Shown piece after piece: positions 7,702 to 9,322 of a DNA stretch of 33,425 nucleotides. Both the position numbers and the translations under genes were made by a program. This DNA is from Jannaschia donghaensis. GTDB lineage: Bacteria > Pseudomonadota > Alphaproteobacteria > Rhodobacterales > Rhodobacteraceae. The stretch covers positions 697,682-731,106 of the forward strand of contig NZ_CXSU01000005.1 in assembly GCF_001403795.1 (NCBI RefSeq). Direction: 5' to 3'. The notes beneath the pieces were generated by a model, which made no database searches, was not told the DNA's origin, and saw only the letters and a list, made by a program, of their open reading frames with translations. How positions within the stretch are numbered: the first letter of the stretch is position 1; every line of letters starts with the position of its first letter.

Positions 7702-8496
7702 ATGACGCGACTGACCGGCAAGATCGCCCTGGTAACCGGAGCCGCGCGGGGGATTGGGGCCGCCATTGCGCGGGCCTTCGCCAACGAAGGGGCGCAGGTG
7801 ATCGTGACGGACGTCGACGTGGCCGGCGGCACCGCGCTGGCCAGGGAAATCGGCGGGGTGTTTCATCACCTCGACGTCGCATCCGAAGCTGACTGGGACA
7901 GGATCGCAAAGGCCGTTCCCGCTCTCGACATCGTCGTGAACAACGCGGGTATCACCGGCTTCGAAGGGCCATTCGACGGCCCGCCGCCACCGCAGGATCC
8001 GGAAAATGCCAGTCTTGCCGATTGGCGCAGGGTCCATGCGGTGAACCTCGACGGAACGTTCCTCGGCTGCCGCTATGCCATCGGCGCGATGCGCGACCGC
8101 GACGCCGGGTCCATCGTCAACATCTCCTCACGCTCCGGCCTTGTCGGCATCCCGGCCGCCGCGGCCTACGCATCGTCCAAAGCCGCCGTGCGAAACCACA
8201 CCAAAAGCGTCGCCCTCTATTGCGCAGGGCAGGGGTTGAACATCCGTTGTAACTCGATCCACCCGGCCGCCGTCATGACCCCGATGTGGGAACCGATGCT
8301 GGGTGACGGCCCGGATCGCGCCAAGCGGGAGGCGGCAATGGTCGCTGACACGCCGATGCGCCGCTTTGGGCGACCCGAGGAAGTTGCAGCGCTCGCCGTC
8401 CTTCTGGCCTCGGACGAGGCTGCGTATATGACCGGGGCCGAGCTGACGATCGACGGTGGGATCCTTGCCGGGTCGGCGGCGACGCCGGGTGGCTGA
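7702..8496 (+). CDS. Short-chain dehydrogenase/reductase (SDR), classical type
   Basis: NAD(P)-dependent oxidoreductase of 264 residues. Cofactor motif TGAARGIG (12-19); D37 near the end of beta2 suggests NAD preference. NNAG at 80-83. The catalytic set is a serine in NISSRSG (142/143), Y156 and K160 (YASSK). The C-terminus carries the usual [11 protein letters not shown] segment. The substrate is unknown; the family includes 3-oxoacyl-ACP reductase-like and sugar or steroid dehydrogenases. The ATG at 7702 (AAGG 4-5 nt upstream) is preferred because the Rossmann fold begins immediately; upstream in-frame codons overlap uvrD. The gene starts 10 bp after uvrD and is probably co-transcribed with it. 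It converges on the small-RNA array. Confidence 0.9.
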
Positions 8497-8554: not shown

Positions 8555-8598
8555 GCGAAAAAGCCGCGATGTCCAAGGGAGGAAGGACATCGCGGCTT
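8555..8598 (-). terminator. Terminal Cuckoo stem-loop and intrinsic terminator
   Basis: A perfect 14-bp stem, AAGCCGCGATGTCC (8561-8574) with its complement at 8585-8598, closes a 10-nt loop UUCCUCCCUU. On the minus strand it is followed by five U residues. It serves both as last motif-bearing hairpin and as a Rho-independent terminator for the DUF1127-sRNA transcript. Confidence 0.9.
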
Positions 8599-8610
8599 CT
8601 TGCGTTTGGC

Positions 8611-8634
8611 GTGATCCGAGGGAGGGCGGATCAC
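8611..8634 (-). ncRNA. Cuckoo stem-loop 7 (variant loop)
   Basis: A perfect 8-bp stem GTGATCCG (8611-8618) with CGGATCAC (8627-8634) presents CCCUCCCU as the whole 8-nt loop. Confidence 0.75.
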
Positions 8635-8648
8635 ACCGTACCGGCGTC

Positions 8649-8674
8649 CGGACCAAAAGGGAGGAGACGGTCCG
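8649..8674 (-). ncRNA. Cuckoo stem-loop 6
   Basis: CGGACC (8649-8654) pairs with GGTCCG (8669-8674) around a 14-nt loop with UCCUCCCUU. Between this unit and the next one upstream (8675-8739) the motif is missing; only a 5-bp hairpin (8693-8697 with 8716-8720) remains, perhaps a decayed unit. Confidence 0.7.
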
Positions 8675-8739
8675 TCGTCGAATTCTGAAAAGGGAACATC
8701 CCCAAGTGACGTCCGGTTCCATGATATTCTCGAGAGGTT

Positions 8740-8776
8740 CCGACGGTGCCCTAAAGGGAGGAGAGAGCACCGTCGG
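8740..8776 (-). ncRNA. Cuckoo stem-loop 5
   Basis: A perfect 10-bp stem, CCGACGGTGC (8740-8749) with GCACCGTCGG (8767-8776), closes a 17-nt loop containing UCCUCCCUU in RNA sense. Confidence 0.75.
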
Positions 8777-8796
8777 TTCCTTCGTGAACGCCCGTT

Positions 8797-8850
8797 CCCC
8801 AAGGGAGGAGGAGAGGTCGGGGCGCAGTCCCGACCCAAGGGAGGAGAGGG
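8797..8850 (-). ncRNA. Two Cuckoo motifs flanking a central hairpin
   Basis: Two motif copies (8801-8809 and 8837-8845) flank a perfect 7-bp hairpin, GGTCGGG (8815-8821) with CCCGACC (8829-8835). Here the motifs are largely single-stranded around the stem, or in weak alternative loops closed by CCCC (8797-8800) with GGGG (8819-8822). The right-hand copy holds the exact CCUCCUCCC. Confidence 0.65.
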
Positions 8851-8866
8851 CCGGTATAGGTGCGAC

Positions 8867-8892
8867 GGCGGATCGAGGGAGGGTCGATCGCC
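8867..8892 (-). ncRNA. Cuckoo stem-loop 2 (variant loop)
   Basis: GATCGA (8871-8876) pairs with TCGATC (8884-8889). GGC (8867-8869) and GCC (8890-8892) extend the stem past one bulged G. The loop is the CCCUCCC variant. Confidence 0.7.
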
Positions 8893-8901
8893 ATCGCGGT
8901 C

Positions 8902-8936
8902 CCCCTGCCGCTTCAAGGGAGGATCAGCGGCTGGGG
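8902..8936 (-). ncRNA. Cuckoo stem-loop 1 (first after DUF1127 gene)
   Basis: GCCGCT (8907-8912) pairs with AGCGGC (8926-8931). The stem extends past a T-T mismatch by CCCC (8902-8905) with GGGG (8933-8936). The loop carries UCCUCCCUU (RNA sense). It begins 5 nt after the DUF1127 stop codon. Confidence 0.75.
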
Positions 8937-8941
8937 TATTC

Positions 8942-9163
8942 TCAGTTGCCGTAGGCGGCTTCGATCGCGACGCTGCGGATCATCCCACGGGCCAGGCCCA
9001 GGTCGGCCAGGTCACGGTTGGACAGCGCCTCAAGCTCGTTGACGGTGCGGCGGTAGACGCGCCATTTGGCATAATCGGCACGGGCGGTCTGGATACGCGT
9101 GGTGATGCGATCGCGAAGGGTGTTGGTTCCGGCGGCCGAATTGCCGTAAGTGGTGTAAGCCAT
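8942..9163 (-). CDS. DUF1127 small protein, CcaF1-like
   Basis: A 73-residue basic protein. The C-terminal half (about 40-70) has the DUF1127 pattern: TVNELEALSNRDLADLGLAR, then an Ile-rich helix. The ATG at 9163 is chosen because AGAGGAAG (plus-strand 9169-9176) sits 5 nt upstream; a longer in-frame start at 9217 lacks this. In Rhodobacter sphaeroides the equivalent protein, CcaF1, binds RNA and influences processing of the CcsR RNAs encoded just behind it; the same layout here supports that assignment. The gene lies between a RpoH-like promoter and the sRNA array and shares its terminator, so it is likely stress-induced. The role is inferred from family and synteny. Confidence 0.88.
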   Translation of the reverse strand: MAYTTYGNSAAGTNTLRDRITTRIQTARADYAKWRVYRRTVNELEALSNRDLADLGLARGMIRSVAIEAAYGN

Positions 9164-9199: not shown

Positions 9200-9248
9200 G
9201 TTGCGTCCCGGCCCCATTGCCGGTCGGCGTCTTGTTTCGTTGTTGAAT

Positions 9249-9277
9249 AGATGGCGCTATCGCTGCACCTGCACAAC
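9249..9277 (-). promoter_or_regulatory. Heat-shock (RpoH-type) promoter candidate for the DUF1127/Cuckoo operon
   Basis: On the minus strand, GTTGTGC (9277-9271) is followed after 14 nt by CGCCATCT (9256-9249). The -10 matches the sigma-32 consensus CCCCATNT at all but one position, the spacing is canonical, and the -35 keeps only TTG of CTTGAAA. It predicts a start near 9242 and a leader of about 80 nt. RpoHI/RpoHII control is established for the R. sphaeroides counterpart. Confidence 0.5.
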
Positions 9278-9322
9278 TGTCAGAACTCTCAATGCCGCTA
9301 TGCAGCATTTGCATGGCGGCGG

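Follow-up and report, generated by a model that had tools for sequence, protein, structure and literature searches.

A DUF1127 gene followed by eight anti-Shine-Dalgarno hairpins in Jannaschia donghaensis, a probable counterpart of the ccaF1-CcsR operon

Among the described systems closest to the locus studied here is the ccaF1-CcsR1-4 operon of Rhodobacter (Cereibacter) sphaeroides. Published accounts present it as ccaF1 and four CcsR RNAs, with an RpoHI/RpoHII promoter, a terminator and processing by RNase E, and they report that the CcsR RNAs depend on Hfq, are cleaved by RNase E and lose stability through PNPase. A report of 2011 (PMC3927594) describes the R. sphaeroides RNA RS0680a as two stem-loops with an anti-Shine-Dalgarno (aSD) motif in each, so that, by arithmetic from RS0680a alone, four CcsR RNAs would amount to eight loops. 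RNA binding is reported for the DUF1127 protein of R. sphaeroides, and the same source (PMC12501420) describes the small DUF1127 proteins of Agrobacterium as working through protein contacts and as replaceable by CcaF1. CIN1 is the name given to DUF1127 in association with CcsR-like RNAs.

A second relevant family is alpha-r14 of Sinorhizobium (NfeR1, SmelA075-SmelA099; RF02344, 'Cuckoo'). According to the published descriptions, S. meliloti NfeR1 lowers the expression of an ntrB reporter, an effect that is lost when its three aSD loops are all mutated; the RNA is activated by LsrB, whose site, TGCA-N6-GCAT, lies at -72 to -60. In Rhizobiales the LysR regulator VtlR/LsrB is reported to control DUF1127 genes and small RNAs through a GCAT-type box, for which a VtlR motif, CAATGCAGCCATGCA, and another form, GCAT-N3-TG-N3-T, have been published. 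One account limits LsrB to the Rhizobiales (PMC11975290), and another places VtlR/LsrB in many Alphaproteobacteria (PMC7486931).

Here we analyze a stretch of 33,425 nt of J. donghaensis DNA (contig NZ_CXSU01000005.1), called the window below, in which an earlier note had pointed out an array of CCUCCC motifs behind a DUF1127 gene. Our results make it very probable that this locus is the ccaF1-CcsR (Cuckoo/CIN1) operon of Jannaschia, processed into RNAs that pair through their loops, and they place the array in a known type of regulatory operon. The features of the locus, together with two others elsewhere in the genome, are collected in Table 1.

Table 1. Positions of the features of the Jannaschia donghaensis locus and of two further loci of the same genome (positions are those of the window unless a contig is given)
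Feature	Position	Strand	Remarks
Upstream box TGCAAATGCTGCATAGCGGCATTG	9290-9313	-	TGCA-N6-GCAT at 9300-9313 overlapping GCAT-N4-GCATTG at 9290-9303; LsrB/VtlR-like
Putative promoter	9249-9276	-	TTGTGC at 9271-9276; CCATCT at 9249-9254, RpoH -10-like; sigma type assumed by comparison with R. sphaeroides
Second box, half-sites TGCAGGTGCAGC	9262-9273	-	within the promoter; from the alignment of upstream regions
DUF1127 protein gene, ccaF1 counterpart	8942-9163	-	73 aa; PF06568, E 2.2e-13
CCTCCC motif starts	8922, 8882, 8844, 8808, 8761, 8664, 8625, 8582	-	
Hairpin 1	8902-8936	-	loop GAUCCUCCCUUGA; local folding
Hairpin 2	8858-8903	-	loop CCCUCCC; local folding
Hairpin 3	8823-8864	-	loop UCUCCUCCCUU; local folding
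Hairpin 4	8788-8825	-	loop UCCUCCCUU; CCUCCUCCC motif partly in stem; local folding
Hairpin 5	8735-8781	-	loop CUCCUCCCUUU; 16 pairs; strong covariation
Spacer lacking the motif, between hairpin 5 and hairpin 6	8682-8734	-	motif-to-motif gap of 80-97 in 16 of 18 genus loci
Hairpin 6	8641-8681	-	loop UCUCCUCCCUUU; local folding
Hairpin 7	8602-8645	-	loop CCCUCCCU; local folding
Hairpin 8, Rho-independent terminator	8558-8596	-	loop UUCCUCCCUU; 12-bp core stem, then UUUUU
Second Cuckoo-like locus (L132/L172)	G000:C12:1286340-1286431	+	two hairpins with UUCCUCCUCCCUGA loops
LsrB-like LysR gene L153 (= L167)	G000:C12:973282-974178	+	best PDB match 9hh1_A

The clustering of the motif, given in the note as eight in about 350 nt of the minus strand, was confirmed as a genuine observation. 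Eight CCTCCC (CCUCCC in RNA) lie within 346 nt of that strand, which has 17 copies in the whole window, compared with 3 on the plus strand. The richest 400-nt stretch contains 8 motifs; in 200 dinucleotide shuffles of the window its counterpart held 2.2 on average and never more than 4, and when the array alone was shuffled 500 times the average was 1.0 and the highest count 6. The placement of the motifs in the loops of stems also held for all eight when each was folded in its own 50-nt stretch (unconstrained MFE), with 10-19 pairs enclosing each motif. These hairpins seem longer than the 6-14 bp first given because pairs beyond internal loops were counted, and the ends of neighbouring hairpins can overlap because each was folded separately. 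Several of the other nine minus-strand CCTCCC of the window are placed in loops too, mostly with weaker energies, so that loop position alone is weak evidence. Hairpin 8, whose loop has 10 nt, was missed by a simple terminator scan that allowed loops of up to 8 nt.

The first pair of hairpin 1 is separated by 5 nt from the stop codon of the DUF1127 gene, on the same strand. Since the neighbours on the terminator side (a UvrD-type helicase and a short-chain dehydrogenase) and on the opposite side (an MFS transporter and an Mrp-type ATPase) are all on the plus strand, the DUF1127 gene and the array form a unit alone on the minus strand. The dehydrogenase gene (7702-8496, plus strand) lies between the helicase gene and the array; by eye, the end of the helicase gene appears to adjoin the array directly in several relatives. 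The DUF1127 protein is 47-81% identical to 18 other aligned Jannaschia proteins and has a single match in each of 20 Jannaschia genomes (J. donghaensis included), and no second relative of it was found in the J. donghaensis genome at E <= 0.001.

Of 506 relatives matched by a search with the DUF1127 alignment, the best 80, Rhodobacteraceae loci that form a sample biased to close relatives, were compared. Arrays of at least two motifs stand behind DUF1127 at 79 of these 80 loci, L054 being the only one without, and the link between array and gene made in the earlier note is supported. At least four motifs are present at 76 loci and at least eight at 34, the range is 2-16 with a median of 7, and 580 of the 588 motifs sit in hairpin loops. 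An array of eight loops is therefore of ordinary size, and the description of it as expanded, about twice that of R. sphaeroides, has to be given up, the more so as four CcsR RNAs of two loops each would also make eight. The ten loci with CcsR1 (RF02791) matches above the cut-off carry 6-14 copies of CCUCCUCCC, the full loop motif, in stretches of 2.2-3.1 kb. Larger arrays, with 14-16 CCTCCC, were seen in other Rhodobacteraceae (L030, L056, L095, L116 and L123), and the 3.1-kb stretch of L032 contains 14 CCTCCC together with four DUF1127 matches.

Evolution of the stems was followed within the genus in two ways. In an arm-swap test, all eight hairpins were used from the 10 loci, of 20 in the genus, that have eight hairpins in a 5+3 layout (J. 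donghaensis included); where motifs lay within 10 nt of each other (L007 and L012), the later one was taken. Native hairpins averaged -21.6 kcal/mol (n=80) and mixed-species chimaeras -16.3 kcal/mol (n=720), and 556 of the 720 chimaeras paired worse than both of their natives, most clearly for hairpin 6 (83 of 90) and least clearly for hairpin 2 (41 of 90). Covariation was counted in an alignment of 12 of 18 Jannaschia arrays, L010, L015, L018, L020, L022 and L024 being omitted for their layout. In the RNAalifold consensus of the complete array, hairpins 1, 3, 6 and 7 were wrongly paired or absent and hairpin 4 was recovered partially, and the count was consequently restricted to the three well paired helices, where 99.0% of the cells are paired in the 12 arrays. 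Double-sided changes were found in 16 of 35 pairs, a level reached by none of 500 shuffles and compared with at most 4 in slid versions, in a test that is favoured by a structure taken from the same alignment and whose shuffle comparison can be inflated by relatedness; for further pair types, 2 of the 500 shuffles reached the observed level. These results are clear evidence that in Jannaschia it is the pairing, and not the sequence of the stems, that is under selection, as the covariation-like pattern had suggested. Alignment with related genomes, proposed at the time as a check, revealed compensatory stem changes, and loss of stems with drift of loops was not seen.

The layout is shared as well. 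In the ten 5+3 loci the motif pitch is 35-42, 37-41, 33-37 and 44-47, then a gap of 88-97, then 36-42 and 43-45. Of the 18 Jannaschia loci whose spacing was compared, a set without L019 and L031, two (L018 and L024) have no gap at that place, and L020 and L022 have fewer than eight hairpins. The motif of hairpin 4 is lost in L011 and L016, so that single loops are dispensable. The spacer of several loci has a fold in which GGAAC is paired with GTTCC or GTTC. Hairpins repeated in this manner might be expected of a selfish palindromic family of the REP kind, an explanation to which we give next to no probability, since CTCCTCCCTT occurs just five times in the J. donghaensis genome, four of them inside the array, arrays recur behind DUF1127 in the relatives compared above, and their spacing is common to the ten loci of the genus.

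A more serious alternative is that the array serves chiefly as a structured 3' UTR which protects and ends the DUF1127 mRNA, or a platform for DUF1127 autoregulation, with loops that do not act in trans. Its position right after the stop codon with a terminator at its end would agree with this, as would the RNA binding reported for the R. sphaeroides protein and hairpin 4 of L016, which by eye keeps its stem without the motif. We nevertheless consider it improbable, because the stems drift while CCUCCC stays across genera, because the loops of the related S. meliloti NfeR1 are reported to act in trans on the ntrB reporter, and because the same loops are present at a separate second locus (Table 1), with no DUF1127-like motif detected by a motif scan of the surrounding 5 kb. 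DNA searches matched this second Cuckoo-like locus in 14 of 20 Jannaschia genomes (J. donghaensis included), and a conserved block containing TTGACC lies upstream of it.

Membership of the array in the CcsR type was also approached through its loops and through covariance models. The presence of CCUCCUCCC in every loop serves as a criterion for the Cuckoo family, and in the window the full motif was found in one hairpin of eight, hairpin 4. It accounts for 30 of 70 motifs at nine Jannaschia loci versus 433 of 518 at the other 71 loci of the best 80 of 506 relatives, a difference that its p value of 1.5e-12 overstates because the loci are related. The genus illustrates that the full motif can shrink to CUCCUCCC or UCCUCCC. 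Two loop classes had been proposed to define subsets of targets, an idea that the comparison of species does not support, as the class at one position varies between them: the loop of hairpin 2 is CCCUCCC in the window, UCCUCCUCCCUU in L007 and L009, and UCUUCCUCCCUU in L008. The Jannaschia form, with its 5+3 layout and shortened motif, is a genus-level variant.

No Rfam family matched in the window at its gathering score. The CcsR1 model scored 26.4 bits on the array and ar14 (RF02344) 42.0 bits, below gathering scores of 65.3 and 58.8, respectively; a covariance-model search had been suggested as a check of the CcsR assignment, and it gave a CcsR1 match that stays below threshold. Under strict filters, by which weak matches are lost, RF02791 had no match in the J. 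donghaensis genome at E <= 0.001, and at the same E value it matched in 242 of 295 Rhodobacteraceae genera, with 10 loci above the cut-off. In a simple motif search, nine of these ten loci have a DUF1127-like frame (the exception is L040), all ten a TGCR-N6-GCAT box and nine GCAT-N4-GCATT; below the cut-off, L047 has a DUF1127-like frame and the box, and L046 has neither. Searches of 142 genomes of the class with ar14 gave matches in 7 (J. donghaensis included), none above the cut-off, and with ar15 no match, which does not show absence.

The locus resembles ccaF1-CcsR1-4 in its DUF1127 gene, its C/U-rich aSD hairpins in the 3' UTR and its terminator, and also in having eight loops if the four R. 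sphaeroides RNAs have two each; its putative promoter, with a CCATCT that looks like an RpoH -10, resembles those of CcsR1-positive genomes. To this extent the analogy with the CcsR/Cuckoo RNAs made in the earlier note is upheld. It differs from ccaF1-CcsR1-4 in the rarity of CCUCCUCCC, with a score below the RF02791 gathering score, and in its 5+3 layout, where R. sphaeroides has repeated two-hairpin units with spacers. With the alpha-r14 family it shares runs of aSD loops in which the loops are conserved and the stems variable, and with NfeR1 a TGCA-N6-GCAT box, which in NfeR1 serves activation by LsrB; unlike the Jannaschia array, members of that family are described with 3-4 hairpins, and NfeR1 with an RpoD-type promoter signature.

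The anatomy of the locus, the compensatory evolution of its stems, and the layout and promoter that it shares with its relatives are directly visible in the DNA. In the mechanism that we propose, one stress-type promoter would yield a precursor made of the DUF1127 mRNA and eight 3'-UTR hairpins, the terminator being the last, and, on the model of R. sphaeroides, RNase E and the DUF1127 protein would cut this precursor into short RNAs with aSD loops. The C/U-rich loops could then base-pair with ribosome-binding sites rich in purines and reduce the translation of a set of mRNAs; transcription, processing and targets of the array RNAs are here surmised from the known systems. The pattern AGGGAGG-N3-10-ATG has 54 matches in the J. 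donghaensis genome (two at one site) versus 6 for the reversed pattern, an excess that fits masking, though any SD-like pattern would be enriched. Given that the transcript holds many similar loops, which we take to resemble the tail of 16S rRNA, they might instead act as a sponge that takes up a protein or ribosomes and not mask single mRNAs. We think this less probable still than the structured 3' UTR, as direct pairing fits the loop-dependent mRNA silencing described for NfeR1, and we retain the masking of ribosome-binding sites by processed RNAs as the preferred reading.

The upstream region points to a candidate regulator of this operon. Two strongly conserved blocks stand out in the alignment of 18 Jannaschia upstream regions with that of L038, one of the ten loci above the RF02791 cut-off, and TTGTGC-N16-CCATCT of the window aligns with L038. 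TGCA-N6-GCAT, exact in the window, is present in 72 of 80 upstream regions (260 nt; best 80 of 506 relatives) and absent from 8, and it occurs in none of 78 control stretches farther upstream. Successive boxes in these 80 regions are spaced by 40 bp (31 pairs), 39 bp (11 pairs) or 208 bp (one pair), a pair 39-40 bp apart being found in 42 regions, and GCATNGCNGCATTG is present in 56. At the 30 loci of a DUF1127 protein search, a set that overlaps the 80, GCAT-N4-GCA[AT]T was found in 29. The long box, TGCANNTGCNGCATNGCNGCATTG, has one site in the J. donghaensis genome at 0 mismatches, and at 3 mismatches two more versus one for the reversed pattern. By homology, transcription would be expected to start near 9242; if it starts 7 nt past CCATCT, the first box of the window would start near -71.

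The agreement with the published VtlR forms is partial. TGCATGGCTGCATTG, the reverse complement of CAATGCAGCCATGCA, differs from TGCATAGCGGCATTG of the window at two places. The form GCAT-N3-TG-N3-T fits just 11 of the 80 upstream regions (best 80 of 506 relatives), and the window box departs from it with GG where it has TG. Upstream of the two ar14 genes of S. meliloti pSymA, GCAT-N3-TG-N3-T was found for one and TGCA-N6-GCAT for neither. The likeness to the VtlR/LsrB regulon of the Rhizobiales, which includes AbcR small RNAs, consists in DUF1127 genes and small RNAs under a LysR regulator with a GCAT-type box; the differences are that the present operon belongs to Rhodobacteraceae and that its box departs from the published Rhizobiales form.

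In the proposed mechanism an LsrB-like LysR regulator would activate the promoter through the two boxes about 40 bp apart, and we infer from the sequence of the putative boxes that such a regulator may control the Jannaschia operon. For the family as a whole, the proposal that an LsrB/VtlR-like LysR protein acts directly on the ccaF1-CcsR (CIN1) operons of Rhodobacteraceae by binding TGCA-N6-GCAT boxes, typically a pair spaced by 39-40 bp whose second member overlaps the -35, stands in our judgment evenly balanced between right and wrong. We found no report of LysR or LsrB control of CcaF1, CcsR or Rhodobacter DUF1127 in the parts of the literature consulted. If the proposal is true, one ancient regulator runs DUF1127 genes and anti-SD RNAs in both Rhizobiales and Rhodobacterales, which contradicts the published view of LsrB as limited to Rhizobiales. 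Thanks to the promoter boxes and the conserved LsrB-like gene, the way in which a widespread operon is switched on can be tested directly.

The J. donghaensis genome has 19 LysR matches, and the best LsrB match among these proteins, L149 included, is L153. Against the PDB it gave 9hh1_A, described as Agrobacterium LsrB, at E 3.4e-71, the next best match being at 4.1e-29. The identity of L153 to Agrobacterium LsrB is 40% along the whole alignment and 76% in its first 62 residues, and the next J. donghaensis LysR proteins reach 30% and 52-53%, respectively. NCBIfam searches of 18 of the 19 proteins (L149 set aside) gave no LsrB model among the matches listed. L153 does not adjoin trxB, around which a 6-kb stretch contained no LysR match and, by eye, an Lrp-like ORF, and none of four box patterns was found in the region upstream of L153. 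Matches of the L153 type at E <= 1e-20 were found in 294 of 295 Rhodobacteraceae genera, although other LysR proteins are admitted by this limit as well, with 4 matches in the J. donghaensis genome. The best E value was below 1e-90 in all but about nine of the genera, as judged by eye, with 74-80% identity among the best matches listed.
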